DNA from: a virus
Length of the DNA: 64,000 nucleotides
Virus record (IMG/VR): IMGVR_UViG_3300038465_000091
Span: 62,001-126,000 of that record
Reading direction: 5' to 3' (one strand)
The notes beneath the pieces are model-generated. The model was not told where the DNA came from. It did not search any database and was given only the letters and a program-made list of their open reading frames with translations. Below, one piece after another: positions 30,751-61,456 of this stretch. The stretch's first letter is position 1, and every line of letters starts with the position of its first letter. The translations under genes were made by a program, and so were the position numbers.

Positions 30751-31224
30751 ATGGGTACGGTTTCAAAGGACCTGAAAGGGCTACAATTTGGGCTTTTGAT
30801 TGTTCAACGTGAGGGTGAGCCTCAAGGGAAACACCACCTACCCGTATGGATATGTCGCTGCATCTGCGGGGTAGAAAAGCCTTTTCGCTACGACACTCTC
30901 CAAGACGGCAGGGCAAAAAGTTGTGGCTGCGCTACCCAAAGGTTTAGAAAAACAAAGCTCGAAAAACGCCACAGCCTCGTAAACCAGCGATTCGGACGGC
31001 TGTTCGTTCTTTGGCGGGTGGGGTCGGTGAAATATGGTAAAACGCCTTCTTCCCATTCTTTGTGGGAATGTAAATGCGATTGCGGAAAAATTGTCAAGGT
31101 CGCAGGCCGTTACCTGCGTGCGGGCACCAAGAAAAGTTGTGGTTGTTTGAAGAGAGACATGATTTATTTGATGCGTGAATTATCTAAACACGGATACTTG
31201 CAGTCGGCGATGGGGGCTCACTAA
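30751..31224 (+). CDS. Zinc-ribbon DNA-binding protein with two repeats (157 aa)
   Basis: Two tandem copies of a short domain: WICRCICGVEKPFRYDTL to SCGCATQR, and ECKCDCGKIVKVAGRYLRAG to KSCGCLKRD. Each pairs a C-x-C-x-CG knuckle with an SCGC, and the second is preceded by NQRFGRLFVLWRV. This RFGRL ... CxCxCG ... SCGC pattern is common in phage DNA-binding proteins associated with AP2/HNH homing endonucleases. No nuclease motif follows, so it may be a free-standing binding protein or a relic. A truncated relative lies at 45026. Confidence 0.65.
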   Translation: MGTVSKDLKGLQFGLLIVQREGEPQGKHHLPVWICRCICGVEKPFRYDTLQDGRAKSCGCATQRFRKTKLEKRHSLVNQRFGRLFVLWRVGSVKYGKTPSSHSLWECKCDCGKIVKVAGRYLRAGTKKSCGCLKRDMIYLMRELSKHGYLQSAMGAH

Positions 31225-34200
31225 TGTCTTCTACTTACGATTGGCAGAAAACGTATCCTACGGTTTGCAGTCGCACGTTAGACCCGACCGGGAAAAACCT
31301 GACGACTATCGTTGGTATGCACGACCGTCAAATCACCGACGCCGATATCAACCTCATTCAGGACCTTCAGGATTACAAACGCCAGCGACTCCTCAACGAT
31401 CAGGTCACCTCGGGGTGCTTGACCTACGTCCCCTTCCAGTTTGCGCCTTTGGTTTCGAACACGTTTTACGTTCCCGCCTTTGACATCCTTTTCAACGGTG
31501 AGGTAATCTCAATTCAAGGCAATAACTCATCCGCCTTGACGCTCAACGCGGTGACGCTACCCACACCCCCAGCTTGGTCTTCGGGCACGGCGGAAGAAGA
31601 CGCCAGATTGTACATCGCATTTGTCGAAGTTTGGTATCAGTCGTTGAACCCGCAGACGGGGCAAGGCTACTATATCGATCCTATTACGGGGTTGCGATTC
31701 TTTTACCCGTATGGCGGCGTCAATCCAGTCTCAACGAACGCCGAAATAGTTCCCGATGATTCAGTTGACCCCTTCCAAGGATTGTTCACCACCGAACGCG
31801 CCCAGATTCAGTGGCGTATCAATGTCCAGCGTGTGGGGCTCAACTACGACTTCACACAGTTTCAGTATGGTCTCGACCCATCGACGGCAACCAACCCCTA
31901 TGCTCGCATGGCGGTGTACGCGCAGGCGCTCCAGTCCGCCCCCAATACATCCTCTTCTATTTATCAATTCACGAACATGGGTCCGATCAACGGCGATACG
32001 GCGGTGTGGCGTGCTGGTGATGGTAACGTTTTCAATTCACTCGGTACCATGGATGGTTACAGTTACGCTTTCCCGCTCGCGATCATCTTTCAGAAAAACT
32101 CGGGCAACTTCGACATCGCCAACAATTTGTGGGGTTCCGCTAACTCTAATCCGCCCGCATACTGGCTAGCTTTGCCGTTTGCCCAGCAGGGTGTCAATGG
32201 TCTACTTTCGTCAGGCATCTCGGGCCGTTTCGATTCTCGTCTCGCCGATCAGATTTTCCAAGACAACGTGGTGGATACTCGTTCGACGATTAACCTCGCT
32301 GGTTGGGACATGGACGCTCTATGCCGCTACGGGTTTGGCGATCTCGTACAGGGTGAAACCCAACTTGCGATCTCTCGTGGAGATGCGGCGGTTTCCCCCG
32401 CCAACGCGGAAAATTGCGGCTCACGACTGAATTACTATGTTTCCATGGCTCCAGCGGGTATCATCAACACCAACACTATCGGTGCGTGGGATGGATTTTC
32501 AAATGGATTCAGTAGTGATCTTCGCACCTTCACATCGACCATTGCGGTTTCGACCAGCGGTAAATCTCTCGGCAACATCGGTCAGCCGTGGATTAGTGGA
32601 CCACCTCAAGGCGATGCATTCACGATTACCCTACCCGTCAACTCAACGGCAACCATCCAATCCGTTGCGGTGACCGCGCTGGTGACCAACCAATTGACGG
32701 GCGCTAATACGCCCGCCGCCTTGCTGAAGGGGCAGGTGACGATCAACGGTCTGGGCTCCAAGTCGGCGACCGTGCAGTTGACCGATGCGTTGGGCGGCAC
32801 CGCGTTTGATCCGGGTACAAACAATATTTACGCAACAGTTGGGGTCCAGTACCCCGCAGGATCGAACATCGATCTCCATCACGTCCCTTATGTGGTGGAC
32901 GGCGGTCAGTTGTTTGACAACTCTACAGGCATTACGATGCCCGTATATGGCGTTTCTGAATATCAAGTACAGTCGCCGCAACTTGCGTTGCAAGCACAGG
33001 CGGTTTGGGCAGTCAACCCCGAATACTCGGACACAGTGTTTGGCACTCGAATTTGGGTGCAAATTCCGGGCTCTTCGGGACAATCACAAACATTGGGCAC
33101 CCAGACGTATACAACATTCGTTATTTCTCGCATCGACCTCAATGAGTCAGTGAATGGCTTGTACGGCGTCAGTGCGTGGGATTCACAGGTAGGTCCGAGC
33201 GTACTTTACCCCATTTCAAATCGCGTGATGAACGGAAACAACTTTGTTCTGACGATCCAACAGGCGGTTCCCGCGTCATCCACGTTGGTCGTTGAATTCG
33301 TAGCACAAAATACCGCTCAGTTGGCCTACAACGCTCCCGTAAAGGGCGTCACTGAGATTGAGGAAACGGTTCTGTTTGGTAATTATACCGGACCTTTCTT
33401 TACGACCGACCAACGTGTGCAGGCGGTTTCGACGGTGTACAACGGCGCGATTGCAAACACCACCACGGTTATCTTGGCGGCTCAGCAGCCCAACATCAGC
33501 ACCCTATCGACTGGGTGCAGCATCAAAGGTATCTCGGGCGACGATACGGGGAATAGATTCATCTGGGTTTCCGATGGGGCTACGCCTACGTCAAACTTTA
33601 CCGCCATAACCATACCAGCAACCAGCATCACCATTAACAACGGTGTCGTTACCTTGGTTGTTCCGGGTAATCTATCGTCAAAGCAGTTTTTCTTCGTGGG
33701 ATCAATTCTTCCAGCATTTGATCCGCTCTCAAAGTTGATCGTTGAGATGCACTACATTCCGTATCAGGGCGAGGGCGTATTGAATCGTGATTATGAATTC
33801 TTACACGCCGAAGACAACGCTCTCATCACCACCAACGGCACTGGTTCCGCCCCCATTGTTGGATTGAAGGACATCTATCCTTACAATCGTGAACTACCGA
33901 TTGCAATCACTATGCCCGCTCAGCCCGGTTGGAGCGATGCTACGCTTGCCAATGCCCCGCTTGAAACGTTCTTTGATTCAAACTTCGTCGCCATGCGAGT
34001 AAACAACGTAGAGCACACGTTCTTGGCCCCACTACATACCAATGATTTCATCCCTCCGATCAATAGGGATATTCGTAAATCTGTGCGCTTCGTGGCTGCG
34101 GCCACAGGCGGCAGGGGCTTCGCGACGGCTGTGCCACATCTAGGCTTCGCTATTGCCCCGCCAACTGCCCGCACGGTATTAGGTGCGAACCTACAAACCA

Positions 34201-35132
34201 CCACTGCACCCATCACGTTGTACGTTAACAACGTCACTGGTCTCGACAGTAATAGCGGACTGTCGCTGGCTACGGCGAAGCTGACAATCCTATCCGCAAT
34301 GAATGAACTACCGCCCGTTCTTAGCTTCCCATGCGTCATCGAGCTTGCGGATACGGTAGTAGCCTACAACCTCACCAGTATCCAAAGCAGCGGTGGGCTG
34401 GAGGAAATTACGCTAGGAGATGGTGTGAGTGAAAGTCTCTTCGCGTTCGCTTTGGCTAACTTGTCCCGTGTAATACAGGGCGAGGGTCGTTTGGTCATCT
34501 CGATTCAATCAGGGTCGAGTAATCAGGCGGTCATCGACGCTACGGGGTTTGCGGGCACGGGCACTGGTCCGACGTATGCGTTCTACACCGATACAAGCCG
34601 CGTGATCTTTAACGGCATCATGTTCAAAGGGTTCCAAGACGCCGCGATCAAGGGTAGAAACGCCGACATTCAATTTGTGAATTGCAGTTGGACGGATAAT
34701 CTTCAAGCAGGTTCTTACGAAGAGGCGTGCGGCGTTGTCATCGACGGAGGCAGTATCACGCTGCCGAGTTCAGGTGTGGGGCACATCGGAACAGGCGGTA
34801 CAAGCATCAGTGCTACGAGTGTCAACATGCTTTTGGAGACGAGCCCCGCCGCTTTGAACACGGCTCCGTTCTTTGTAGTTGAGCGCGGATCGAACCTGAC
34901 ACTCATGACGCACGGTGTCAGCGGCTTGCAGGAAAATCTCCCGCAAGTATCTCCGTTCATTATCGTGGCTCAAGCGGAATTGAATAGTAGCGTTGTAGTT
35001 ACGGCAGATTTTCAAACTTGGGGAAGTTGCGTGCTTGAAGCAAATTCAGTCTTGGCTCAGACCGTTCAAACAAATTCGTTTCTCGGCGGCGTGATAGCGG
35101 ACGTTACGTCAAGTACGGTGACACAATTATAA
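31224..35132 (+). CDS. Large tail fibre/spike with C-terminal beta-helix
   Basis: A 1,302-residue protein. The N-terminal part (DADINLIQDLQDYKRQRLLN, LYIAFVEVWYQSLNPQ) is like phage tail-fibre bases that attach to the baseplate. The middle is beta-rich. The C-terminal 300 residues begin LYVNNVTGLDSNSGLSLATA followed by ITILSAM, a typical start of a right-handed parallel beta-helix as in tailspikes, which usually bind or cut host surface glycans. No catalytic Asp/Glu pair could be identified. Confidence 0.65.
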   Translation: MSSTYDWQKTYPTVCSRTLDPTGKNLTTIVGMHDRQITDADINLIQDLQDYKRQRLLNDQVTSGCLTYVPFQFAPLVSNTFYVPAFDILFNGEVISIQGNNSSALTLNAVTLPTPPAWSSGTAEEDARLYIAFVEVWYQSLNPQTGQGYYIDPITGLRFFYPYGGVNPVSTNAEIVPDDSVDPFQGLFTTERAQIQWRINVQRVGLNYDFTQFQYGLDPSTATNPYARMAVYAQALQSAPNTSSSIYQFTNMGPINGDTAVWRAGDGNVFNSLGTMDGYSYAFPLAIIFQKNSGNFDIANNLWGSANSNPPAYWLALPFAQQGVNGLLSSGISGRFDSRLADQIFQDNVVDTRSTINLAGWDMDALCRYGFGDLVQGETQLAISRGDAAVSPANAENCGSRLNYYVSMAPAGIINTNTIGAWDGFSNGFSSDLRTFTSTIAVSTSGKSLGNIGQPWISGPPQGDAFTITLPVNSTATIQSVAVTALVTNQLTGANTPAALLKGQVTINGLGSKSATVQLTDALGGTAFDPGTNNIYATVGVQYPAGSNIDLHHVPYVVDGGQLFDNSTGITMPVYGVSEYQVQSPQLALQAQAVWAVNPEYSDTVFGTRIWVQIPGSSGQSQTLGTQTYTTFVISRIDLNESVNGLYGVSAWDSQVGPSVLYPISNRVMNGNNFVLTIQQAVPASSTLVVEFVAQNTAQLAYNAPVKGVTEIEETVLFGNYTGPFFTTDQRVQAVSTVYNGAIANTTTVILAAQQPNISTLSTGCSIKGISGDDTGNRFIWVSDGATPTSNFTAITIPATSITINNGVVTLVVPGNLSSKQFFFVGSILPAFDPLSKLIVEMHYIPYQGEGVLNRDYEFLHAEDNALITTNGTGSAPIVGLKDIYPYNRELPIAITMPAQPGWSDATLANAPLETFFDSNFVAMRVNNVEHTFLAPLHTNDFIPPINRDIRKSVRFVAAATGGRGFATAVPHLGFAIAPPTARTVLGANLQTTTAPITLYVNNVTGLDSNSGLSLATAKLTILSAMNELPPVLSFPCVIELADTVVAYNLTSIQSSGGLEEITLGDGVSESLFAFALANLSRVIQGEGRLVISIQSGSSNQAVIDATGFAGTGTGPTYAFYTDTSRVIFNGIMFKGFQDAAIKGRNADIQFVNCSWTDNLQAGSYEEACGVVIDGGSITLPSSGVGHIGTGGTSISATSVNMLLETSPAALNTAPFFVVERGSNLTLMTHGVSGLQENLPQVSPFIIVAQAELNSSVVVTADFQTWGSCVLEANSVLAQTVQTNSFLGGVIADVTSSTVTQL

Positions 35133-35141
35133 GGATCAAAA

Positions 35142-38100
35142 ATGCCTAATCCTCCAAATCTCGGTTACGTGGGTCCAGTATCGGCGCTCATTGACAACAA
35201 CAATGTCTTGACCGTTAGCTGGGTGCCGCCGACAGGTCCCGCTTACACAAATTGGGAAATCATCCTCAATGGGAACCCCACCGCGTCCATACCTGCTCCA
35301 TCCCCGTACACGGGAACGCCGCTGTTTTACACGACGACGTTGACCGCAGGCTCGTGGACGATGGACATGCTCACCAACATTGCGGGCAGTCCACCCCAGT
35401 CATTTGACTGGGAAGCGTATAACTCGACTCTTAACGTATGGCAGTCAGTTGCTCCTCCAACGGGATCGTATCTTGCCTTCCCCGACGCCATCCCTTCGGC
35501 GGATGTTGTATTCAGCAGCCTTACCCTCGAACTCGGGCAGCCCTTGACTCTTACGCTTCAGTCCGCGTACACGGGTGCCGATCAATGGCAGGTCCTCTGG
35601 CCTGATGGCTCGAACACGGGGTGGTTGCCACTCTCCGCATCTCTCCTGACTAAGCAGTTCTCGATCTCGGGTCCGTTGGACGTTGTAATTCAGTCCCGCA
35701 GACTTTACAACACTTCGTCAAACAGTCCAGCCGTCATTCTGATGCGGCAACTTACGGTTCAAATATTCGTTGTCGATCAGCAGTACACGGGGACGACCAC
35801 GACATCATCTTCCTTGACAGGCACGCTAGGTATCGGCGGTCAACAGGGATTTGAGATCACAGGCGCAACGGGCGTAGGCTCGGTCGCCAATCCATGGGAA
35901 GTGGCTGCTCGTGCGATTGTACGTGACACGGTTACTAACGAACTCAAGCTGCTCGTTGCGACGACTCGCTTCTCCAATGCTTCCTCCCTGCTGGGTACGA
36001 TGGGTATCGACGTATTCCCCATTGAAGGACGCCCAAAGATCAAGGAACTGATCCAGCCCGTTTACGAAAACAGCTTTAACTCACTTACATCTTCGGTCCC
36101 AGTAAACATCACGACAACGCAATTGCCGACAAGCATCTACGTCGGTAAGCCGATGGCCGAATTCCAAATGCAGGCATCGGGCGGCACTACGCCGTATGCT
36201 TGGTACACGGACGGCTTGCCTGATGGCTTGAAACTGAGCATTAACGGCGTACTGAGTGGAACCCCCTTGGCCTTAGGCACTGCCTCTATCAACTTTGCGG
36301 TGCAAGATTCCAGCGTGCCTTTCTATATTGCGGAAGCAGCATTCCCCATCACGATAAGTACCGATTTATTGGTGGAGCTTGCATTGGGTCAAACCGATGC
36401 TAACGGTAACCCGCTATCTCAGTTGGGCAATTCGCTTGGTATAGCGAAGATCGATGCGCCCTATTCCGTGCAGATGATAGTTGGAAACGTCAACCCAGCC
36501 AACCCAATTCCGGGTGGATTGCCGCCGTATACGTGGAGTATCCCCGCAGGTAGCCTACCTATCGGACTCAGCATCAATCCAAACACGGGACTGATCTCGG
36601 GCACTCCGAGCACATACAACTCGACCTCGGACTTTGGCAAGACATTCTCAGCGGTCATTCAGGTAACGGACGCTATCGGTGCCATCGCCACACAAACGTA
36701 TCAGATAACGTTGGAACCAGCCGTGCTCCAGTTCGGCAATCTCTCCCAACCAACTATTTACGCGGATCAGCAATTCAAACTGACGATTCCAATCTTTGGT
36801 GGGTTTTCGCCGTATTCGATCACGGCGGCAGGCTCAGGGTTCTTTCCAGCGGGGGGAACAAGCGCATACTACGGTCCAGTAACCCTCGTGGACGGGCAAA
36901 TTCAGGTCGATGTCAACTATCCAATTGCGGGCTCGTACTCGTTCATTGTTATCGCTCAGGACAGTCCGTCCCCCATTGGGTATGTGCCTGTAACACTTGC
37001 TCAGCAGGTTACGCGCCAATTCACCGTCGTTGTCGAGGCCGCTCTTAGCGATCCATTTCTCGTCCCAGCTTTCGTGGGCCATGTGTGGGGCTACGCAGAC
37101 ACGCAAGTGAACGGCGGCTATAAAGCAACGCCGATTGCCATAACCGGAGACTTCGCAGGTTTCACGCTCGGTGGAGTATTTGTCAGCCTGAATTCCGCCG
37201 CGCCAGCTTTCGGGGGCAACACCCTGTATACGGGCACACTCGGATTTTGTAGTGGGGGCGGAAACAATGCTTATTTGGGCAAGACTTTCGTTGTCTCGGG
37301 ATTCCAAAACCCGACGAACAACGGCACATTCCTGTGCACTGCGTCCGACACGACACACCTGACGTTGAACAATCCTAATGGCGTAGCGGAAACGATACCA
37401 GCCCTTGGCTACAGTTCATTTCTTACCACAGCTATCCCTACGCCCCTTCCAGCGGGCTCTACTGGCACGCCAGCTAGCCCCGTTGCCCCGTTTGCTTTAA
37501 CGACCTTGTATACGGGAACGGTTTTAGGCGGGGCGAATAACGCCCTTGTTGGACAAGATTTCATTGTCTCGGGATTCGCTCCTCTCTCGGGAAACAACGG
37601 TACATTCTACTGCGTAGGGTCCACCGCAGCCACCTTGACGCTGAGTAACCCAAACGGGACGAACGTGACCGTCCCTAGCACTGCGTACTCGTTAATCTCA
37701 GCAATCAGCGGGTCCGGAGCGGGGTCCCTCGTCACCGTTGAATTAGGTTCGGCGGCTAATTACGCCCTGCTCGCCTACAGTGGGATCACGAACGCTGATC
37801 CAGCGACCTCGATTTCGGGAGGTGTTATTGGCTCAGCCCCAATCATGAGCATCACGGGCTTTAATCCCCCTACGGCGACCGTAGACAACGCTGACGCTCC
37901 TGCGGCCCGTCTCGACGGTAACGCCGCGTTTGGTTATTATAGTGGCCTGACCCCAACTCAATCGAGTCTAAACAACTTGAGCACGAACAATGGCGGGGGC
38001 GGCGTAGGGGTTTATCGCGCTGGCATCTTCTCAGGCGGTGCTTTGGACATGCCTACCAGTATCACCCTTGATGCTCAGGGCAATGCGAACGCGGTCTTTG

Positions 38101-41100
38101 TGTTCATTTCCGCGTCTACGACTCAACTTCAAAGCGGTGCATCCATCCTCTTGCTCAACGGCGCACAGGCTGCGAATGTTGTCTGGGTGGTCGGAAGCTC
38201 CTTCACGCAGTTCGGCACGGCTGGCACAATGGTTGGTACTATTCTCGCTTACGCGAGTATCACCCTTGGTGGTGGGACATTAAACGGCAGGGCGCTAGCC
38301 GTAGGCGGCGGCAATGGGGCCGTGACCATCGCGGCTGCCGAAGCCATTACGGTATCGGCGGGCGCGGGTTCGCCATCAACCACAATTTACACCGCCGATT
38401 TGGGCACGTTCTCACCGTCCCTATCGGGCAACTTTACAGTTAGCGGGTTTGACTACACGGGAAACAACGGCACCTTCGCTATCGTGTCTAACACATCCAG
38501 CCAATTGATTCTGGCTAATCCAAATGGCTCGCCAACCCTTGACTCTATCGGCAGCCCGCCAATAGCCATCGGCACCGCCACTCAAGTAGCAATTGCGGTA
38601 CAGTCGGCGGCAAAGGCGTTGCAAGCAACAGCTTTGTCAAACGGCATCACGGTTGCTATCGACCCAGTAATCCCAGAGGTAGAATTTAGTGGTCCTCCGT
38701 CTGGAGTTTATGGCAACGTACAATACATGGTGCCTCTCCTGCTTCAATTGGCAGGTACCACCGTTGCTACGACCTCGCAAGTGTACACAGTACTAACGCA
38801 CGATGACGCGACACTCCTCGGTTGGGTGACGGGTACAGACATTGGAACGATAAGCACGGTCACACGCCCCTACGTTGTCGGGGAAGTGGTTGGTTTGAAC
38901 CCGCGTCAACCGTACTACAACTCGCCAGATGTTCCTCAGATTACCCCAACGAGCCCCGTACCGAGTGACGCTCCATGGATCGCCACGATGCCCATCACAG
39001 TGTCGGGCAATGCCCTACCATTGGGTCTTTCGCTCGATGCAAATACGGGGTTGATCTACGGGACACTCACGGGCGTGGCTACAGGTCCCAGTGTTATCCA
39101 ATACGTAGGTGCGATGGGCATAATCCACGGCACGGTGACCATCACTTGGAACACTGTAGTGAGTGCTTTCTCTCCGATTGATAACCTTCAGGATAGCGTG
39201 CCGCTTGGTACGATACTGAACAGGACAAGCAACACCAGCTATATAGCCGTACCTGCGGGAGTCACACCAGCATCGGCATCCATATACTACATAAGAGGCG
39301 CTGCTCAAGGGGCACTCCCAGCGGGCTTAACCCTTGACTCCACCCCAACGGGTCAGAATTTCTATATCACAGGCGCAGCCACAGAGAGTGGGTATTTTGA
39401 CGTTTGGTTTCAGGTGACCGCAAACACGGGCACCGCGTACTTGTACCATCGTATATCCATCGATTTTACCGCCCCGTTGACGATTGTAACTACATCACTG
39501 CCCAGTATTAGTCAACAGGCTTACTCCGCGCAAACACAGGGGTTTGGCGGCGTGCCTCCTTACACGTGGTCAGCGGTTTTCCCAGCAGGCGCGGCGGGGC
39601 TCAGTATCTCGCCATCCACGGGTATAATTTCAGGCACGCTGTCGTCTTTCCCTGTAATTAGCCCCACCGACTTCGACAACGTTGCAATTACTTTAACAGA
39701 CTTCCGAGGCTCCACCACTACAGCGCAGCTTGACCTCACGTACAATAACAGTTTGCGGCTTACGACGAACCGCATAGCGACCATTACCGACGATCTTAAC
39801 GGGTATTCGTTTCAAATGACGGCTGCGGGCGGCATAGCGCCGTACACTACATGGGCTGAGATTGGCACGCTGCCAACAGGCATCACGTTTAATGGCAGCA
39901 CGGGTTTGTTTTCGGGGGTTTATTCTGGTGCCACGGGATTAAGTTTTCCCATCACCATTGCAGTGACGGATAGTACACCCCTGACGACTGCACCCATACC
40001 ATTTACCATAACTACTGGCGGCTTGTCTGGAAGTATTAACGACAGCGGAGTAGGGCCTATCCCGCGTGGCGAAGCTTATCAAGGCACGCTTTCAACGGCG
40101 TGTATGACAACTCCTGTACAGTGGCAAGTTGCGCCTACCACCGGATATCCAAATCTTCTTCCTTCGGGGCTGTCATTACAAGTCAACGGCACGGGAGCAA
40201 CAGCAACGATTGCTGGCATTTATTCAGGTCCTATAATTCTGCCTACAAGTCCGTATCCAGTCAGGGTTATTGCGGTAGATAGTCTAGGCGATACGGCAGA
40301 GGCTATCGTAGAGTTCAGTACCGATACAAACCTGACCATCATCGGATGGGACTATGCGTTGTCCCCTATCGGCGTGCAGCCATTTCCGCTTCCCAACGCT
40401 GTTATTACTGGCAGCTATCCGCCGCCAAGCGGCGGTGGGATTCAGCTTGTAGCAATTCACGGCGTACCCTCGGGCGTACTGGCGAACGGATACAATCAGT
40501 ACGTTTGGAACACCATACCTTCAGGTCAGTTCCCATTCAATGGGATTTCGCTCTCCTCGACTGGCGTGCTCTCGGGCGCAGCTACGACGCTGTTTAGTCA
40601 GAGTTTTGACTTTGTGGTGTCGGATAGTCTCACACCGCCTAACACCGCCCCCCCAGTCACCACTACGTTTGCTTCGCAGACTTCGGCACTCGTTATCACC
40701 ACGTCATCGTTACCACAAGCAACCGCTGGCGTAGTGTACAACGGAACAGGGTTCCAACTGCAACAAACGGGAGCGGTGGGTTCCTTCACATTTTCCGTTG
40801 TCGGCGGCACCCTACCTTCAGGGCTTTCGTTGTCACCTACAGGTTTGATTACGGGCACTACGCTTCAGGTAGGAAGCACCCCCATCACGTTCCGTGTGAC
40901 GGACAGCACGTCGGCCTACTTCAACAGAACCTTGACGTTTACGGTTATTTCTGGGTTGGCGCTGAAGACGGGTATCGATTACGAGGATTCAACTGCGTAT
41001 GGCTACATCGGATATGTTGATACGGGCAACGTGGTTGGTATTGCACCGCGCACAAACCTGTCATTCTATGTGGTTGCAACGGGCGTAATTACCACCGATC

Positions 41101-41354
41101 CTGCCGCGCTCGGAATAATTGTCAGTGGCGGGTTTGGTGTCGGGACCGTGACCATTTCGGGCGGCGTGGCAAAAATTCCACTGACCGGGGCATTTTCATC
41201 GGGCACCATCGGAAATGTCAACCCCATATCCATTTCTGTCACCGATTCTGGCATAACTGCTACAGCAACTTTTAATTGGGTGGTTTATAACGACGGAGTG
41301 TTGCGACTGGTCGCTAACAACGCATTCCCAGTCAAGTTAACGACGCCGAACTAA
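35142..41354 (+). CDS. Giant adhesin-like fibre with He_PIG repeats and ice-binding-like domain
   Basis: A 2,070-residue protein. It contains many Ig-like He_PIG repeats (pattern GGTTPYAW, LPDGLKLS, GVLSGTP, with variants GLSISPSTGIISGT and GLSINPNTGLISGTP). Three copies of a second repeat, YTG...VSGF...NNGTF...NPNG, lie at about residues 680-860 and 1,080-1,140. Between them, residues about 864-1,072 match the DUF3494 ice-binding family (VELGSAANYALLAYSGITN, SITLDAQGNANAVFVF, NGAQAANVVWVVGSSF, NGRALAVGGGNGAVTI). It is probably an extended, surface-exposed fibre for host or matrix adhesion. SD AAGGA precedes the ATG. Confidence 0.75.
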   Translation: MPNPPNLGYVGPVSALIDNNNVLTVSWVPPTGPAYTNWEIILNGNPTASIPAPSPYTGTPLFYTTTLTAGSWTMDMLTNIAGSPPQSFDWEAYNSTLNVWQSVAPPTGSYLAFPDAIPSADVVFSSLTLELGQPLTLTLQSAYTGADQWQVLWPDGSNTGWLPLSASLLTKQFSISGPLDVVIQSRRLYNTSSNSPAVILMRQLTVQIFVVDQQYTGTTTTSSSLTGTLGIGGQQGFEITGATGVGSVANPWEVAARAIVRDTVTNELKLLVATTRFSNASSLLGTMGIDVFPIEGRPKIKELIQPVYENSFNSLTSSVPVNITTTQLPTSIYVGKPMAEFQMQASGGTTPYAWYTDGLPDGLKLSINGVLSGTPLALGTASINFAVQDSSVPFYIAEAAFPITISTDLLVELALGQTDANGNPLSQLGNSLGIAKIDAPYSVQMIVGNVNPANPIPGGLPPYTWSIPAGSLPIGLSINPNTGLISGTPSTYNSTSDFGKTFSAVIQVTDAIGAIATQTYQITLEPAVLQFGNLSQPTIYADQQFKLTIPIFGGFSPYSITAAGSGFFPAGGTSAYYGPVTLVDGQIQVDVNYPIAGSYSFIVIAQDSPSPIGYVPVTLAQQVTRQFTVVVEAALSDPFLVPAFVGHVWGYADTQVNGGYKATPIAITGDFAGFTLGGVFVSLNSAAPAFGGNTLYTGTLGFCSGGGNNAYLGKTFVVSGFQNPTNNGTFLCTASDTTHLTLNNPNGVAETIPALGYSSFLTTAIPTPLPAGSTGTPASPVAPFALTTLYTGTVLGGANNALVGQDFIVSGFAPLSGNNGTFYCVGSTAATLTLSNPNGTNVTVPSTAYSLISAISGSGAGSLVTVELGSAANYALLAYSGITNADPATSISGGVIGSAPIMSITGFNPPTATVDNADAPAARLDGNAAFGYYSGLTPTQSSLNNLSTNNGGGGVGVYRAGIFSGGALDMPTSITLDAQGNANAVFVFISASTTQLQSGASILLLNGAQAANVVWVVGSSFTQFGTAGTMVGTILAYASITLGGGTLNGRALAVGGGNGAVTIAAAEAITVSAGAGSPSTTIYTADLGTFSPSLSGNFTVSGFDYTGNNGTFAIVSNTSSQLILANPNGSPTLDSIGSPPIAIGTATQVAIAVQSAAKALQATALSNGITVAIDPVIPEVEFSGPPSGVYGNVQYMVPLLLQLAGTTVATTSQVYTVLTHDDATLLGWVTGTDIGTISTVTRPYVVGEVVGLNPRQPYYNSPDVPQITPTSPVPSDAPWIATMPITVSGNALPLGLSLDANTGLIYGTLTGVATGPSVIQYVGAMGIIHGTVTITWNTVVSAFSPIDNLQDSVPLGTILNRTSNTSYIAVPAGVTPASASIYYIRGAAQGALPAGLTLDSTPTGQNFYITGAATESGYFDVWFQVTANTGTAYLYHRISIDFTAPLTIVTTSLPSISQQAYSAQTQGFGGVPPYTWSAVFPAGAAGLSISPSTGIISGTLSSFPVISPTDFDNVAITLTDFRGSTTTAQLDLTYNNSLRLTTNRIATITDDLNGYSFQMTAAGGIAPYTTWAEIGTLPTGITFNGSTGLFSGVYSGATGLSFPITIAVTDSTPLTTAPIPFTITTGGLSGSINDSGVGPIPRGEAYQGTLSTACMTTPVQWQVAPTTGYPNLLPSGLSLQVNGTGATATIAGIYSGPIILPTSPYPVRVIAVDSLGDTAEAIVEFSTDTNLTIIGWDYALSPIGVQPFPLPNAVITGSYPPPSGGGIQLVAIHGVPSGVLANGYNQYVWNTIPSGQFPFNGISLSSTGVLSGAATTLFSQSFDFVVSDSLTPPNTAPPVTTTFASQTSALVITTSSLPQATAGVVYNGTGFQLQQTGAVGSFTFSVVGGTLPSGLSLSPTGLITGTTLQVGSTPITFRVTDSTSAYFNRTLTFTVISGLALKTGIDYEDSTAYGYIGYVDTGNVVGIAPRTNLSFYVVATGVITTDPAALGIIVSGGFGVGTVTISGGVAKIPLTGAFSSGTIGNVNPISISVTDSGITATATFNWVVYNDGVLRLVANNAFPVKLTTPN

Positions 41355-43666: not shown

Positions 43667-44974
43667 ATGGCGACCACGAATCCGTATAAGTACGCCTACC
43701 CGGGTCCACCGTTCAATTGGCTCGGGCATGTCTCCGAAACTCAGTTCAAAGCCTTTCAAAGTTGGTACACAGCTTTGAATATCAGTGCGCCCGCGTCTTC
43801 CGCCGCCACGTCTCCCGGAAGCACGAGCACAAATCCCGCCGCCCCGCCGGGCGCGGGAACCACCACTCCCATAACCCCACAGTCGAATTCGTCAACCACC
43901 AATGCAGCGGCTCTGGCTGCGACCATCGTCAAGAATTTCGAAGGATTCAGTGCAACAGCATATCCCGATCCTGCGGGACAGACGAAAACGTATTCCATTG
44001 GGTATGGGCATCAGATTGTTCCGGGTGATGGGCTTTCTACGTCATCGGTAGTGACGATGGATCAAGCGAATACGCTTTTGATGTCCGACCTGTCGGCGTC
44101 GATCAATACCGTCAACAATTCCGTAATGTCGCCGACACCCTTGGAGCCCACTCAGACGGCGGCTTTAGTCTCGCTGGCGTACAACATCGGCGGCACTGCT
44201 TTTAAGAATTCTACACTGGTTTCTGATCTCAACAGCGGCAATACGGCTGCGGCAGCGGCTCAATTTAACAACTGGGTGTACGCTGGCGGGACTGTAAATT
44301 CGTCGTTGGTTGCTCGGCGTACACAGGAGCAAGCACTTTTCAGCACGGGCGTCATCCTAAGCAACTCGGGCAACCCGACCGTCAACGCCGCCAATGCCGC
44401 CAACAGCGGTGGGTCGATGACCACCCAGCTTCATTACCAGATTCGTGCTCAGCAGTTACGGAAGACCGCAGGAGCTTTGGAACAGTACTACCAAACGGTG
44501 AATGAAATCTCGCTAGGCGTGCTGACTCCATCGTTTGCAAAAGCCGCATGGCAACCACCTACGGGCGGGTACTTCCAGTACGCTCATCGGGACGATCACC
44601 TACCGATGGTTGCAATGGGGCAGGTCAAGACCTACCTGAAGGATCGGCTCCAACGTCAGGATGAAGCGGTTTTTCACATGAATCATGCTCGCAATATCAT
44701 TGAAAAGATTGAAGATAAGGCACAATATCAAGCGGATGCTAAGACCCAAATCCCCAACTTAATCGCTCAAATCAACGGCTATTTTGCTCTCCCGCAGTAT
44801 GCTCCCGTGCTGGTTAAAGATCAAACTGATGTATACCCAACGGATAGCACAACACCCAGATATCGAGTTCACGAACTCGATAATCCGACCATTTTCGAAC
44901 TCGAACAACACGGTCGTGCTCTCCCGGGAGGTCCAGTTGATCTGAAGGAAACACCACAACCCGCTACTGGCTAG
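43667..44974 (+). CDS. Virion-associated GH24 lysozyme
   Basis: A 435-residue protein. A Pro/Ser/Thr-rich linker (about 40-75) separates a short N-terminal part (YKYAYPGPPFNWLGH) from a GH24 lysozyme (about 80-235). Catalytic Glu92 in NFEGF, Asp101 in YPDPAG and a nearby Thr (106 or 108) before IGYGHQ match the E-8-D-x-T set of phage lysozymes. LVSLAYNIGG and VARRTQEQALF are also typical of GH24. The C-terminal 200 residues are helical and probably attach the enzyme to the tail. Likely a structural lysozyme that opens the wall during entry. Confidence 0.85.
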   Translation: MATTNPYKYAYPGPPFNWLGHVSETQFKAFQSWYTALNISAPASSAATSPGSTSTNPAAPPGAGTTTPITPQSNSSTTNAAALAATIVKNFEGFSATAYPDPAGQTKTYSIGYGHQIVPGDGLSTSSVVTMDQANTLLMSDLSASINTVNNSVMSPTPLEPTQTAALVSLAYNIGGTAFKNSTLVSDLNSGNTAAAAAQFNNWVYAGGTVNSSLVARRTQEQALFSTGVILSNSGNPTVNAANAANSGGSMTTQLHYQIRAQQLRKTAGALEQYYQTVNEISLGVLTPSFAKAAWQPPTGGYFQYAHRDDHLPMVAMGQVKTYLKDRLQRQDEAVFHMNHARNIIEKIEDKAQYQADAKTQIPNLIAQINGYFALPQYAPVLVKDQTDVYPTDSTTPRYRVHELDNPTIFELEQHGRALPGGPVDLKETPQPATG

Positions 44975-45154: not shown

Positions 45155-45948
45155 TGTCATTCGACTACAACGTTTTGGTAATCGATCCAACCACACAGCA
45201 ACCCATTGGCGCGTGCGATCACCAACAGAGTTTTGAAAGATACGTTTGCGACTTTAATGATTTTAAGACGTTGCACTACGCCGGGAATACCGCGTTGAAT
45301 ATGCGGGCTCCAATCAACGGCACGGATATGGTTCGGATGTGGATTTCCGAGGAAGAGGTCCGGCAAAATGATCCTACGTATGGGTGGACAATCGTGCGTG
45401 ACCCAGCCCGACTGGATGCCGTTAACGCAACCGATCAGTTTTACAAGGTCATGTTTGTGAAGCCTGTCCGCCTCGTGGTGCCGTTGATCGAGGTGTCGTA
45501 CTTAACCTCACAGGGGTACTGCCTGAAGTGTAGTGCCATAGGCTTTCTAAACGATTTTAAGAATGCGTCCTCAGGAAGTTTCGTACGAGTCACCCAGCAG
45601 GTAAAACTGGCCCAAAAGGGGTTGAAATGGGTTTTGACATCTCAGTGCGCTTTCTACCCGACATTTGTTTGTCCTCTTAAGAGTTATGTTGGCAAGAAAT
45701 TGGGTATTCAACTAACAGACACCGACATTCAGAATGCCGTACAAACCGCTCTGAGCACAATGCAGCGAGTGCAACAGGCTCAAAATACGGTCCAAGTGCT
45801 CGACCCGTTGGAAATGATTAAAGATATCCAGTACGTAACGGCGCAGGTCGCCGCTGATGATCCGACAACCATACAGGTCGGGGCTATGATTACGACATTC
45901 AGCGGCACGTCAGTTCCTCTGTCGTTTCAGATGATGGTGAATAACTAA
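45154..45948 (+). CDS. Baseplate component (264 aa)
   Basis: The start MSFDYNVLVIDPTTQQPIGA overlaps the stop of the remnant. Segments FVKPVRLVVPLIEVSY and LKSYVGKKLGIQLTDTDIQN followed by ALSTMQRVQQAQNTVQVLDP resemble small wedge-type proteins (gp25-like architecture of a beta domain plus a helix). Placed directly before the large J-like gene, as small wedge proteins usually are. The assignment is tentative. Confidence 0.5.
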   Translation: MSFDYNVLVIDPTTQQPIGACDHQQSFERYVCDFNDFKTLHYAGNTALNMRAPINGTDMVRMWISEEEVRQNDPTYGWTIVRDPARLDAVNATDQFYKVMFVKPVRLVVPLIEVSYLTSQGYCLKCSAIGFLNDFKNASSGSFVRVTQQVKLAQKGLKWVLTSQCAFYPTFVCPLKSYVGKKLGIQLTDTDIQNAVQTALSTMQRVQQAQNTVQVLDPLEMIKDIQYVTAQVAADDPTTIQVGAMITTFSGTSVPLSFQMMVNN

Positions 45949-48900
45949 TGCCGACTCCCGTGACATCGCTTACCGCGCTTCAGTTGGTGACGCCGATATT
46001 ACCGAATAATGTCCAGACGATCTCCGTAGATTCATCCGTACTTCCCGTCGTGATCGTCGCTGACGCGAATACAACTCGCATCGAGGTGTCGATCTACAAC
46101 ACAACTTACGTGGCGACAACGTTCACTACCGCAACAGTCAATGGGGTGACTCAAAACACATTTTCTATCAGCGTTCCCTTGATTCCTACGGTTCTGGAAG
46201 CCACAGTTCAAATCCTTGGGCGAAACTATAACCCCTTCGGTGCTTGGGCACCACTCACCACGTTCCCGACTGGCTACACTTTCGTTGATCCTAATGGAAA
46301 CGTGCAAGTCGCCACAGTCGGCGGCGTTTCGGGCAGTTATGGGTTGGTTGGCAGCCCACCCACCATCCCAGTGCAACCCCCGTGGAGTGCACAGAAGGGT
46401 GGAGTCACATTAGATGGCAGCGGTGCTACGATAATCACGTGGACGAATGTTGGCGTCCTCGCTGTTTCTCCGACCATCAAGTTTTCGCTGATCTTTTTCC
46501 AGAGCAACCTCGCCGTCCAGTTCGGCCCGCCATCGGGTATTCAGGCATTCAAGGATCAGACAGATTGCACCCTTCAGTGGGTCACTCCGTCGTTTACAAC
46601 CCCGAACATCAGCCTTGTCGGGGTGCGAGTCCTGCTTTCGACGGACCCCGCAGGCATCAATCCGCCGTTCGTTCAATTCGGCGATCTGGTGCAGGACATT
46701 TCAAGCTCCGTCAACACGGTGATTGATTCTGAAACGACTACATCCACGGTCGGCAACACGACCGTTACCACCACCTCTTCGACGACGATGCCGACGAACT
46801 ATAGTACAGTGGACGTACCCTCGTCGTTCTTTGGCGCTGCCCCAGAGTTTTACGCGATGTTCTCCACGGTCATTCAGGAGACCAACCCCAACTCAACCAC
46901 CATCTATGAATCTCAGCAGAACGGTCCTCTGACTTGCGGATTCGTGAACCTCAAAGTGGTCAGTCCAACTGATTTCCCAGTGCTCCAACGTCAACAGGAT
47001 ATCGCTGGGCGCATTATAAGTCAGATCATGCGGCAGCAACCGAATCTTGATCTTTCACCACGCTCGGAAATTCGCGATGTGGTCGTCGATCCGATTGCCG
47101 TGGAATTATCAAGCATGAGTGTCCGCGAGTGGTTTGCTCGTTGCTCCGCATCTATCTCGGCTATCAGTCAAGTTGATAACGCGAGTGGCAACGGGATATC
47201 CGATCCTTTCAATAGCAGCCCCTACAAACCCCAGATAGCCCGCGCATACGGCCTTAACGCCTCCAACACTCAAAGTTTAATCGACACTCAGTTCAACATT
47301 CTCGGCGAACAGGCGGGACTGACCCGAGGTGGGACAACTTCGGCCACTACAATTTTGACGTTCTTCACGTACACGCAGCCCACGCAAAGCATTACAATTC
47401 CCGAGAACGCTACGGTCGCGACCATCGCCGACGCCAACACCCCAGCCTTGAATTTCATCACCCGAGGTTCGGCGGTGCTCGATGTAAACAACCTGAACTC
47501 TTACTACAACGCGGTACAAGGCTGGTGGGCGGTCACCGTACCTGCGGAATGCACGGTCGCGGGCTCCGTAGGAAACGTCGGTGCGGGTACGATCCGTTCC
47601 GTCGTGAATGGGTTGCCATCGGGTATCAACGTTACAAACCTTGTGGCGGCTCAGTATGGCTCCGACCAGCAATCCAACTCTCAGTTTGCGGCTTTAATTC
47701 AAGCACGTCTCGTCACGGGCGTGGATACGGGCACGCGGCACGGCTACCGTGTAACTGCCTTGCAGACTCCGGGCATCATATCGGCTGTAATCGTGGCGGC
47801 TGGTGACATAGATATGCTTCGAGATTGGGACCCAATTCGTCAGAAGCACGTCTTCGGTTGCGTGGATATTTACACTCGCGGTACGACACTTACCCAGCAG
47901 GACGAAAGCGTTACGTTTACATACGGAACCACAGGAACTTACGGCAACTTGCTAACGTATCTACCTCTCGTACTATCCGATTCGCAGTTGATCCGTTTCA
48001 ACATTCCGACATTCAACACGTTGACCTCCCCAATATACACGGCTGTGGAACTCGTCGTGACTCGCGGGTCGAGCAATTTCTACCTCGGCATTGAACGCGC
48101 CCAAATCGATAATGTGGGCGGTAATATTTTCATCAATCCGAACGACCCATGCTATCAGTACGTTGGATCGGGAGCTACTACGGCCAAGATTCCGTTGCTT
48201 ATTAACGGCAACCCAGCTACCAACCAAACAGCGGTTGCCGCCCTCGCTAGTGCTTCGGGTTCCTACACTTTTGGATTGTTTGCACGTCTTCAATCATCGT
48301 TGCTTCATACCCCAATTCTTCAACCCGTCATCGATGTAGATTCGGTTACAGGCGAAACGGGGGAAACGGGGTCTGTTAGCAGTCCCCTGATCGAACTCAT
48401 TCACACCTCGGATTTTCTATTGTACGGCGGCTCCAACAAGGCGGGTGATGAGGTTAACGTATCGACAACCACGAGTGCCCCCGTCACCAAGACAATCACG
48501 GCGAGCACCGCCACTCCCGCCATTATCGATATTGCAATGGATGTGCCGCTCAGCGCGACTGGTGTGCCACAAGACATCATATCGGTGTTGAGTACGGACC
48601 TTTCAACCAAATACATTTGGGGTGTCGATTACACCGTCGTCGCATTGGATACCTACCACACTTATGGGCTGAATCTGCTGACCTCCACGGTTCCGATCAC
48701 CAACATCGAGATTTCAGGCGATGTACTGACGGTCACAGGTCCCAATAACTTTGGTGCGGGGGCAGTTGTCGCTCTTAGCCAACTCGGAGTCGCCCAATTC
48801 TTAAGCGGACAGAACGTCACCGTCGCCACGGCCTCACCTTCGCAGTTTACGGCAACCTATTCTCACGCTGATTATGCATCGGCCACAGATTCAGGGCTCG

Positions 48901-50219
48901 CTACGGGATCAGCAATTCAAAACTTCGAGCAGGTGGTGGTCACGTACAACCAGTTCACGGTGTACGAGCGTCCGTCGCTCATTACGGGCGAGCAGCACAT
49001 CCTCACGGGAGTGATTCCCACGCCGCTGAACAATGCCTTCAGCTTCGTAGATGATGTTTGGTTACCCGAAAGTTATGCCCCGGGTGTACCCGTTTATCCG
49101 CCCGATCTGTACCACACCCTCACGCTCGATGGTTGGGACGGCTCGTACAATACCACGGATGGCGGACTGGATGTGGTTGGCTCCACTGGACTCGTCGGGG
49201 CTCAAGTTCCATACCTTAATCGTTACATCAAGGTCACGTATAACGGTGCAGTTATGCGCGAAAACATCGACTTTACCCTTAACCAAGACCCGAATACGGA
49301 AGCATGGCAATTAACTCGTATCGGAACTGGCAGCATTCCAGACGGGCAGACCGTCGTGGTTTCGTACTTCGCTACGGAGACGTTCACGGTCAGCACCGAA
49401 TACCCAGCTTTCGTGCAGATTCTTGCAAACCAGATTGCAATCACCAAATCTGCGGCTGCGGACGTGCTTATTAAGGCGATGGTCGCAAGCCCAGTAGACA
49501 TTACGATGACCGTTACGCTTCAAGCAAATGCGTCACCCGAGGTGGTCGATTCTCAAATCCGTACGGCGATTAGCATCGTGCTCGACAACGCGCAGGGTAC
49601 ACTCTACCAGTCGGAGTTGGTTGGTCAGGTTCAGGCGATCACGGGCGTCACCAGCGTCAACTTACCGTTGCTTCGTTGTGCAAAAGCCGATGGTTCGTAT
49701 GATATTGGAGTCGTTGTCCCTACGCAAACCCCGTGGATTCCTCTGGTCCAAGACCCACTTTTCGCTCCGCTGGGGGCGACGGCATTGCCGACAAACAGCT
49801 TTATCACAACGTCAAAAGTTTTAGCCGACAGCACCATCCCATCGGGGGGATTGGCGGACGCTGTTGTTGATATGCTGTATCAAGGGCAGCTATTCCGCCG
49901 AGCATCATCGGTCGCAGATTTCCTAGCCAATAGTCCAGCAGCGGTGACTATTGCCAGCACAGCCGTGCCGGGGTCATTCTACATCTTCGGTGAAAATGAT
50001 AACGTGAATGGCACGCCGACTTCAGCATACGACGGGAGGATTGCAATCGTGGTGCCGCAAGATGTCGCCAACCCCGGTTTGTACAGCTACTTCGTGACCT
50101 ATCAGGTTTACGATGAGACGGGTGCAAGCGACATCACCGTATCGTCCACCGAATACCTGACGACTGGCAATATCGTCATCAACTATGTGACGCCCCCAGC
50201 TACGACGACGGGACAATAA
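45948..50219 (+). CDS. Baseplate J-like wedge protein (1,423 aa)
   Basis: The centre contains a baseplate J-like region: IREWF-like SMSVREWFARCSASIS, then LGEQAGLTRGGTTSATTIL, ITIPENATVATIADANTP, FITRGSAVLDVN and VTVPAECTVAGSVGNVGAGT with the usual GIISAVIVAAG. The N-terminal 250 residues have repeated beta-sandwich modules including PWSAQKGGVTLDGSGA, and the second half contains the FLSGQNVTV module shared with neighbours. Joined with the next gene by a TAATG overlap, as in a wedge operon. Confidence 0.65.
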   Translation: MPTPVTSLTALQLVTPILPNNVQTISVDSSVLPVVIVADANTTRIEVSIYNTTYVATTFTTATVNGVTQNTFSISVPLIPTVLEATVQILGRNYNPFGAWAPLTTFPTGYTFVDPNGNVQVATVGGVSGSYGLVGSPPTIPVQPPWSAQKGGVTLDGSGATIITWTNVGVLAVSPTIKFSLIFFQSNLAVQFGPPSGIQAFKDQTDCTLQWVTPSFTTPNISLVGVRVLLSTDPAGINPPFVQFGDLVQDISSSVNTVIDSETTTSTVGNTTVTTTSSTTMPTNYSTVDVPSSFFGAAPEFYAMFSTVIQETNPNSTTIYESQQNGPLTCGFVNLKVVSPTDFPVLQRQQDIAGRIISQIMRQQPNLDLSPRSEIRDVVVDPIAVELSSMSVREWFARCSASISAISQVDNASGNGISDPFNSSPYKPQIARAYGLNASNTQSLIDTQFNILGEQAGLTRGGTTSATTILTFFTYTQPTQSITIPENATVATIADANTPALNFITRGSAVLDVNNLNSYYNAVQGWWAVTVPAECTVAGSVGNVGAGTIRSVVNGLPSGINVTNLVAAQYGSDQQSNSQFAALIQARLVTGVDTGTRHGYRVTALQTPGIISAVIVAAGDIDMLRDWDPIRQKHVFGCVDIYTRGTTLTQQDESVTFTYGTTGTYGNLLTYLPLVLSDSQLIRFNIPTFNTLTSPIYTAVELVVTRGSSNFYLGIERAQIDNVGGNIFINPNDPCYQYVGSGATTAKIPLLINGNPATNQTAVAALASASGSYTFGLFARLQSSLLHTPILQPVIDVDSVTGETGETGSVSSPLIELIHTSDFLLYGGSNKAGDEVNVSTTTSAPVTKTITASTATPAIIDIAMDVPLSATGVPQDIISVLSTDLSTKYIWGVDYTVVALDTYHTYGLNLLTSTVPITNIEISGDVLTVTGPNNFGAGAVVALSQLGVAQFLSGQNVTVATASPSQFTATYSHADYASATDSGLATGSAIQNFEQVVVTYNQFTVYERPSLITGEQHILTGVIPTPLNNAFSFVDDVWLPESYAPGVPVYPPDLYHTLTLDGWDGSYNTTDGGLDVVGSTGLVGAQVPYLNRYIKVTYNGAVMRENIDFTLNQDPNTEAWQLTRIGTGSIPDGQTVVVSYFATETFTVSTEYPAFVQILANQIAITKSAAADVLIKAMVASPVDITMTVTLQANASPEVVDSQIRTAISIVLDNAQGTLYQSELVGQVQAITGVTSVNLPLLRCAKADGSYDIGVVVPTQTPWIPLVQDPLFAPLGATALPTNSFITTSKVLADSTIPSGGLADAVVDMLYQGQLFRRASSVADFLANSPAAVTIASTAVPGSFYIFGENDNVNGTPTSAYDGRIAIVVPQDVANPGLYSYFVTYQVYDETGASDITVSSTEYLTTGNIVINYVTPPATTTGQ

Positions 50220-52918: not shown

Positions 52919-52922
52919 ACCC

Positions 52923-53618
52923 ATGAATTACTTAGACTTACAATACGGTGTTTGTGGCGTTTACGCAATTATGAATTGTGTCAATGGGCAGGTTTACATC
53001 GGTTCGGCGATGGACATCAAACGTCGTTGGGTCGTTCATGTTAACCGACTACGAGCGGAAACTTATACTACCCACACCAGTCCCATTCTTTGGTCGGCGT
53101 GGAAGAAGTACGGTGAATCCAGCTTCGATTTTTTCGTTCTTGAAGAAGTGCCTGACCGCCTCTGGTTGATGGTTCGAGAGCAACTTTGGCTCAACGATGT
53201 TCAACCGTGGAAGCGGGAAAATGGCTATAACATTCTTCCTACCGCTGAGAGTAGGCTAGGGCACATAGCATCCGAGGAAACGCGACGTAAATCATCTGTC
53301 GCTACAACGCGAGCTAAACTCGGGAAACCGCTCTCACAAGAACACTGTGAGGCTATTTCTAGAGGACATATCGGTAAACCTTGGACTGATAAACAACGGG
53401 AGGCTGATAGAAGTAGGGCTTACATAACGGAAGATTGGCGAGCCGCCAATTCTGTCCGTACTTCTGGCGAAACCAATCCATTCTTCGGTAAGACTCACCC
53501 ATCCGAACTCTTACCGACTCTTCAACAAGCCGCTGTATTGGGTCGCCATACTCGCTGGCACGTAAACCGTGGCATCGTCAATCCCGCTTGTGGACTTTGT
53601 GAAATAGGGGTTTCATAG
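52923..53618 (+). CDS. GIY-YIG homing endonuclease (231 aa)
   Basis: The N-terminal domain has GVCGVYAIMN and GQVYIGSAMDIKRRW, matching GIY-x10-YIG with the Arg after it, and a later Glu in the EQLWLND segment. The C-terminal half contains repeated NUMOD3-like motifs KLGKPLSQEHCEAISRGHIG and NPFFGKTHPSE typical of I-TevI-like enzymes. The start ATG at 52923 was chosen because the longer frame is inside the tail gene. It is free-standing, sitting 4 nt after one gene and 4 nt before the next: a mobile insertion. Confidence 0.88.
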   Translation: MNYLDLQYGVCGVYAIMNCVNGQVYIGSAMDIKRRWVVHVNRLRAETYTTHTSPILWSAWKKYGESSFDFFVLEEVPDRLWLMVREQLWLNDVQPWKRENGYNILPTAESRLGHIASEETRRKSSVATTRAKLGKPLSQEHCEAISRGHIGKPWTDKQREADRSRAYITEDWRAANSVRTSGETNPFFGKTHPSELLPTLQQAAVLGRHTRWHVNRGIVNPACGLCEIGVS

Positions 53619-61089: not shown

Positions 61090-61114
61090 AAAATCCTCAG
61101 ACTTCTGGTATCAT
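61090..61114 (+). promoter_or_regulatory. Promoter of the tmRNA, AAAATCCTC ... GGTATCAT
   Basis: AAAATCCTC starts at 61090 and GGTATCAT at 61107, spacing as at 57021 and 62736 within one nucleotide. Transcription would start near 61121. Confidence 0.7.
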
Positions 61115-61120
61115 GTAATA

Positions 61121-61397
61121 GATGGTCGTAAGCCCCGCAAGGGGTAAAAGGCACTGGTACTGATTTTCAGACAGGGGTTCGACTCCCCTCAGGTCCACCA
61201 TAAATTTTTGCACCACCTTATGGGCCTGCCCCGGTTTCGATGGAGACGGTATGGGATGGCAGCCAGCGACCCGAGCGCAAGGGTGTACCCTCGTTAAACA
61301 GGCATTCAAAAAAGTAAACGCTGAAGCTCCAAAGGCTTTCGCTGCTCATGCTTAATGAGCCAGACCCCGTGGGTCTGTTCCTCAACACGGCAAGAAC
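61121..61397 (+). ncRNA. ssrA: Permuted (two-piece) tmRNA
   Basis: The gene has its halves in reverse order. First comes the acceptor piece: T arm AGGGG/CCCCT with loop TTCGACT, acceptor strand CAGGTCC (61190-61196), discriminator A and encoded CCA (61198-61200). A 21-nt spacer follows, then the coding piece starting GGGCCTG (61222-61228), which pairs perfectly with CAGGTCC and has the tmRNA G3-U70 alanine signal. Next is CGGTTTCGATGGAGACGG, matching the tmRNA 5' domain, a paired CGAG/CTCG region, then AAAAAAGTAAAC before resume codon GCT (61320). The tag reads A-EAPKAFAAHA, followed by TAA TGA. A terminator ends it. It rescues stalled ribosomes. No SmpB gene is in the window. Confidence 0.85.
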
Positions 61398-61423
61398 GCC
61401 CGCGCAAGCGGGCATTTTTGTTT
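61398..61423 (+). terminator. Rho-independent terminator of the tmRNA
   Basis: GCCCGC-GCAA-GCGGGC, then ATTTTTGTTTC. Confidence 0.9.
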
Positions 61424-61427
61424 CTGG

Positions 61428-61456
61428 TTGACAATCTGAATTCCAAAGGCTAGTAT
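61428..61456 (+). promoter_or_regulatory. Sigma70 promoter TTGACA-17-TAGTAT
   Basis: TTGACA (61428-61433) and TAGTAT (61451-61456) with a 17-nt spacer, 12 nt before the ATG at 61468; AGGGG serves as ribosome site. Confidence 0.8.

Follow-up and report, generated by a model that had tools for sequence, protein, structure and literature searches.

Proteins of the DUF3494 family (PF11999), such as AnpIBP (7bwx), EfcIBP (6eio) and FfIBP (4nu2), have so far been studied as cellular antifreezes or ice adhesins. Phage virions are known to share domains of another type, the promiscuous Ig-like (Hoc-type) domains, where one domain occurs in unrelated structural proteins, several per phage, with lateral exchange. 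Here we describe a DUF3494 domain in a tail-fibre-like protein of a large uncultured phage, which appears to belong to a mobile virion module and probably serves in surface binding. It is encoded in the window, that is, the whole 64,000-nucleotide stretch of DNA analysed (bases 62001-126000 of the 223,506-base virus record IMGVR_UViG_3300038465_000091). The two central features are as follows.

35142..41354, + strand: tail-fibre-like protein with a DUF3494 domain, 2,070 amino acids (aa) (open reading frame; Pfam; part-homology to Tunturi_5 gp246/gp245)
37731..38366, + strand: DUF3494 (PF11999) ice-binding-like beta-solenoid domain, aa 864-1075 (Pfam, AlphaFold2 model, structure superposition)

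The first-pass annotation had proposed a complete DUF3494 domain at 37731-38360 (aa 864-1073) inside a phage fibre, to be checked with a hidden Markov model (HMM). The coordinates proved correct, all motifs cited for the domain are present, and the HMM search returned a strong match to PF11999 (Ice_binding) at aa 877-1065, profile positions 2-204 of 208 (E 7.4e-26, 91.5 bits against the curated cut-off of 28.7). The whole domain was set at aa 864-1075 by a profile made from relatives. By sequence comparison alone, phmmer retrieved 24 DUF3494-type sequences of solved structure, 6eio being the best (E 5e-18); no DUF3494 domains turned up in 14 well-known genomes searched as controls. The AlphaFold2 model of the domain (58 aligned sequences; predicted local distance difference test, pLDDT, 94.2; predicted template modelling score, pTM, 0.91) has the irregular triangular beta-solenoid and long helix of the family. 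It superposes on AnpIBP, a fungal ice-binding protein (IBP), with Z 30.0 and 1.5 A over 195 residues (VIA-align); the other listed DUF3494 structures give Z of about 27-30, and the next fold is the pilin ComZ, at Z 12.5.

The fibre assignment is supported by the gene cluster. Window genes 17977-52918 are collinear with gp255-gp240, including the tail and baseplate genes, of Tunturiibacter phage Tunturi_5 (identity 33-52%), a 309-kb contractile-tail phage with an Acidobacteriota host from Finnish tundra soil, which is the nearest cultured phage. Two parts of the fibre are homologous to Tunturi_5 proteins, aa 1-560 to gp246 (41%) and aa 1166-2065 to gp245 (35%), and the middle, aa 561-1165, including the DUF3494 domain, has no counterpart in that phage. 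A search of the fibre against PHROGs gave a weak match to one unknown family and nothing more; orthologues of the fibre are present at loci L021 (2,083 aa) and L147 (2,098 aa).

While domain identity and fibre placement stood, the framing of the domain as a feature of one fibre did not. The whole record contains six PF11999 domains, each above the Pfam cut-off and five of them outside the window, in five proteins of 1,066, 2,070, 1,160, 479 and 837 aa, two of the domains being in the 837-aa protein. From its sequence, the 1,160-aa protein looks like a spike of the pectate-lyase type, and the 479-aa protein looks like a fibre; Pfam found only PF11999 in these two. Three of the six copies share 77-79% protein identity and only 71-73% DNA identity, and the ratio of nonsynonymous to synonymous substitution rates (dN/dS) is 0.05-0.15 among the copies and their closest relatives. 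Recent duplication was ruled out by dS near or at saturation and by the scattered positions of the copies in the phylogenetic tree; judged from their sequences, the copies are old and held by purifying selection. The 1,066-aa fibre (L013:13041-16238, - strand) is 75% identical to its relatives at L020 and L140 in the N-terminal part, 91% in the domain and 39% in the C-terminal part, the pattern of a variable tip beyond the DUF3494 domain. An auxiliary gene for host cryoprotection, as suggested for PF11999 genes of Arctic viral operational taxonomic units (vOTUs) in PMC11515562, would have one stand-alone lipoprotein-like case (L068) in its favour. We regard this explanation as very improbable here, all six copies being embedded in proteins of 479-2,070 aa and others lying in sheath and baseplate proteins; in particular, the window copy is part of a 2,070-aa virion-type protein and not a separate secreted ice-binding gene.

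Four scans of IMG/VR yielded 54, 4, 106 (78 kept) and 5 loci with related domains, about 135 overall; multi-copy records are common, with up to five copies per record. The host proteins are diverse. The first set comprises 71 distinct host proteins; with the domain removed, they form about 27 scaffold clusters, a rough count by single linkage. Tail sheaths are prominent among the carriers: L162 (phrog_10581, E 3e-216, with the PF17482 sheath C-terminus), L159 (phrog_279) and L023 (phrog_2839), and L067 is a baseplate protein (phrog_6; PF04865, baseplate wedge/J). Among 45 further host proteins, fifteen are phrog_279 sheaths, four baseplate wedge proteins, two phrog_10581/23 and one phrog_34521. 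Thus, as in display domains, one domain occurs in several unrelated structural proteins, namely fibres, several sheath families and baseplate J.

Exchange between these scaffolds is visible at individual loci. On the two sides of the domain the orthologous fibre of L147 shares 76% and 71% identity with the window fibre, against 46% within the domain, and the L147 domain clusters with that of a different protein, in another subclade. Similarly, domain 2 of the 837-aa protein has its counterpart in domain 1 of L025 (81%) and in domain 2 of L024 (85%). Such comparisons show that the domain moves as a cassette both between and within scaffolds. In the careful tree, 64 viral domains, among them all six copies of the record in scattered positions, form one group (support 98/98), and additional viral groups are placed elsewhere. 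A single viral origin for all phage copies is not supported by these several groups.

In 26 viral proteins, mostly phrog_279 sheaths, the order of the domain is changed: profile positions ~40-207 come first and ~3-60 follow directly. These proteins carry what is, by its sequence order, a natural circular permutant of the DUF3494 domain. In DUF3494 structures rung b1 stacks beside b6, as described in PMC7277481, and therefore the permuted chain can build the same solenoid. In the model of the L230 sheath, residues 181-338 match ice-binding proteins (Z 17.8 to IBP residues 47-203), and the rest of the same chain matches contractile sheaths (phi812, Z 17; T4 gp18, Z 13); the model is of moderate confidence overall (pLDDT 68, pTM 0.44), and the stacking of the moved b1 on b6 is a prediction from topology. 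Without its insert the L230 protein has flanks of about 481 aa in total, near the 489 positions of phrog_279. Only one of 42 cellular open reading frames has the permuted order, at L087. This gene (L087:4212-5729, in a metagenome-assembled genome (MAG) of Microbacteriaceae) encodes a pilin-like protein with an apparently permuted DUF3494 domain and recalls ComZ of Thermus.

The B-face of the window domain was assigned by alignment through the published B-face residues of AnpIBP (PMC7277481) and spans the following interval.

37779..38333, + strand: B-face segments b1 SGITNA (aa 880-885), b2 ALDMP, b3 STTQLQ, b4 SSFT, b5 ASITLG and b6 GAVTIA (aa 1059-1064) (alignment to AnpIBP B-face residues)

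In the phage domains small residues occupy columns 1 and 2 of this ladder, and nearly all have Thr in column 4 of b1, b6, b5 and b4. By sequence mapping the face is composed of small Ser, Thr, Ala and Gly residues without bulky ones in columns 1, 2 and 4, the exceptions being Q in b3 and D in b2. This is a surface of the ice-binding-site type. Neither of the outcomes that would have refuted the first-pass annotation, a missing HMM hit or a missing ice-binding face, was therefore observed. The Ser/Thr residues equivalent to S153 and T156 of AnpIBP, where mutation of either lowers activity to 17% (PMC7277481), are nearly invariant across the viral set, and the permutants keep the whole ladder, with the transplanted b1 rung no exception. 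Entropy is 0.98 at the outward B-face positions and 1.81 at the remaining positions that are polar or small but not Gly (p 3e-5; positions are taken as independent in all these p values and shared ancestry is not corrected for). The degenerate search patterns contain rungs b4 and b5, so that the conservation could have been an artefact of the search; this explanation was rejected, as the signal is weaker yet persists in a control with b1, b6 and b3 only (0.89 against 1.81, p 4e-4) and in HMM-found domains only (1.12 against 1.84, p 0.002). Across the phage domains, permutants included, the B-face is thus conserved more than any other surface. This bears on whether the domain could be a rigid spacer or stabiliser without ligand, retained for virion assembly or freeze-thaw stability. 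Beta-solenoids are stiff, the purifying selection is strong and the compact fold is predicted at high confidence, all of which would suit a spacer; however, a spacer has no need to conserve one outward face above other polar surface, or to occur in such unrelated scaffolds, and Tunturi_5 manages without the domain. We consider such a role unlikely.

The conservation of one face indicates a ligand, and the domain is probably a virion-displayed surface-binding module with the flat Ser/Thr/Ala/Gly B-face as its working face. According to this scheme, phages would have acquired the DUF3494 beta-solenoid of cellular ice-binding or adhesive proteins, and it would now be a cassette copied and swapped among fibres, a pectate-lyase-like spike, baseplate and tail sheath. 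The domain would sit on the outside of the particle and bind through the flat B-face, a six-rung Ser/Thr/Ala/Gly ladder with a Thr column. A single copy probably binds weakly, and many per virion, on several fibre types in this phage and on every sheath subunit in some relatives, could sum to a strong hold. The target would presumably be an extended ordered surface: in freezing soils it may be ice, with particles held or protected at the ice-water boundary where hosts concentrate, or else host or soil polymers, or mineral. Several observations weigh against the proposed surface-binding role. B-face conservation is present, more weakly, in cellular homologues, and because of this a part of it may come from solenoid structure or ancestry. 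In the fibre copy b2 and b3 contain Asp, Pro and Gln, so that the face is not perfectly regular. Finally, the virion location of the domain-bearing proteins is one that we infer from gene context and partner domains.

As to the ligand, the first-pass annotation had named host surface polymers, or ice and particles, as possible partners, and the computed evidence does not separate these. Phage virion accessory domains are often glycan-binding, and adhesion to the host envelope, an extracellular polymer, cellulose or chitin, or soil mineral, with the flat face reading a repetitive polymer and no role for ice, comes close to an even chance. The fibre, spike and baseplate positions adjoin variable tips, as in the comparison of the 1,066-aa protein with L020, and DUF3494-like solenoids have other uses, the ComZ pilin of Thermus thermophilus binding DNA (PMC6561018). 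However, the B-face has no visible aromatic patch, and the sheath, which is not first to contact the receptor, would be an odd site for a receptor-binding domain. True ice binding, with functional domains on the virion by which the particle adheres to ice or is protected from it, agrees with the nearest structures being ice-binding proteins, with the S/A-G/A/S-x-T ladders, most rungs of which have nothing bulky in columns 1, 2 and 4, and with the near-invariant equivalents of S153 and T156. Habitat points the same way, with MAGs titled palsa or fen supplying several of the nearest cellular homologues and tundra soil the nearest cultured phage. Nevertheless, we leave ice as the ligand open and put its chances somewhat short of even, because the same face is found in cellular homologues from varied habitats, including some not known from ice (a Centralia MAG, Streptosporangiaceae), the family is described as both ice- and substrate-binding and as present in rock and subsurface communities (PMC12337378), and the ComZ solenoid serves DNA uptake. 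In addition, the literature ties Ser, Gly or Thr instead of Ala in column 2 to weaker ice binding. More tentatively still, one may imagine a widespread group of soil phages in which functional ice-binding domains coat the particle, from fibres and baseplates to entire contractile sheaths, with circular permutation adapting some of them to the sheath; such virions would adhere to ice and await hosts concentrated by freezing at the ice-water boundary.

In 84,980 prokaryote genomes the nearest domain reaches no more than 44% identity. A tblastn search of 50,697 named phage records with domain queries of the D2, L150, L162 and L079 types and with the whole fibre gave no domain match; the search also failed to recover S-SKS1, which PMC11515562 names as having PF11999 homologues, and may therefore overlook highly divergent copies in phages. 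Among the viral structures of BFVD, only Hyperionvirus proteins share the fold at significant E-values; this giant virus has at least three DUF3494 proteins (A0A3G5A745, A0A3G5AEI1 and A0A3G5ACG7). A stand-alone 228-aa lipoprotein-like DUF3494 gene occurs at L068 and L069 on contigs classed as viral, which may be bacterial since their domains fall outside the viral groups of the tree.

Other features of the fibre and its tail cluster are the following.

31224..35132, + strand: neighbour protein, 1,302 aa, homologue of Tunturi_5 gp247 'tail fiber protein' (47% over 1,297 aa)
36444..36713, + strand: best of up to seven He_PIG (PF05345) Ig-like repeats in the fibre, aa 435-524 (Pfam)
37218..37421, + strand: ~65-aa module copy 1, aa 693-760 (own profile, 100.9 bits)
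37500..37697, + strand: ~65-aa module copy 2, aa 787-852, directly upstream of the DUF3494 domain (own profile)
38379..38564, + strand: ~65-aa module copy 3, aa 1080-1141, directly downstream of the DUF3494 domain (own profile)
45948..50219, + strand: baseplate wedge subunit, marker of the tail/baseplate cluster (phrog_6, E 5e-14; Tunturi_5 gp241, 47%)

The ~65-aa segment (YTGT...F.VSGF...NNGTF.C...L.L.NPNG) is a second mobile module, lying on either side of the DUF3494 domain in the fibre and repeated in many virion-type proteins of related phages (L017, L024, L025, L037, L047, L151); no Pfam match to it was seen in the fibre. The homologue of Tunturi_5 gp243 (43667-44974) has a lysozyme-type domain (phrog_7, aa 76-241) between its two gp243-like parts, a further case of domain insertion within this tail cluster. 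Immediately past the gp240-like baseplate gene lies a GIY-YIG homing endonuclease (phrog_314, 52806-53618). The window also contains five tRNA genes (235-1775) and a phage-encoded transfer-messenger RNA (tmRNA) gene (61104-61446, tag AEAPKAFAAHA). Given the kinship with Tunturi_5 and its Acidobacteriota host, the host of the window phage is plausibly an acidobacterium, and the same kinship, together with the cellular homologues, suggests a soil origin.

In the open-access literature (subscription journals being outside the scope) neither a virion-borne nor a permuted DUF3494 domain had been described, and no paper dealt with ice binding and the tail sheath; a few mentions combining ice binding with the tail fiber, or an ice-binding protein with circular permutation, look incidental (PMC12923769 and PMC10405475 among them). 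The architecture described here suggests virus particles made for adhering to ice or some other surface of regular structure. As a mobile virion module, common among uncultured phages and absent from the named phage records searched, DUF3494 would provide a concrete and testable explanation of phage survival and host encounter in freezing ground. The permutants, with many natural variants of one face, could also help to identify the parts of the ice-binding face that count. Even with a non-ice ligand, tail sheaths that carry a new, promiscuous adhesion domain would alter the view of sheaths as purely mechanical.

Compared with the characterized DUF3494 proteins AnpIBP, EfcIBP and FfIBP, the phage domains belong to the same sequence family and have the same irregular beta-solenoid with a long helix and B-face ladder, but they reside in phage virion-type proteins, six per record, and are permuted in some relatives, and they are candidates for ice binding. 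The PF11999 genes of Arctic surface-microlayer vOTUs, labelled auxiliary metabolic genes (AMG), are of the same Pfam family; they were read as host cryoprotection, and the accessible part of PMC11515562 gives neither an architecture nor a role in the virion. The Hyperionvirus proteins have the same fold in a giant eukaryotic virus, not a phage. The Tunturi_5 tail cluster has the same collinear tail and baseplate genes as the window, but its gp246 and gp245 lack the DUF3494 region of the window fibre. ComZ of Thermus thermophilus (6qvi) likewise has a DUF3494-like solenoid inserted in an extracellular fibre protein, but it is DNA-binding, and its B-face is described as lacking conservation with that of FfIBP (PMC6561018). 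The Ig-like domains of phages show the same pasting behaviour as the phage DUF3494 domains with a different fold, the latter being beta-solenoids and not immunoglobulin domains; the phage DUF3494 module, for which we infer surface display from position, differs from them in its candidate flat binding face.

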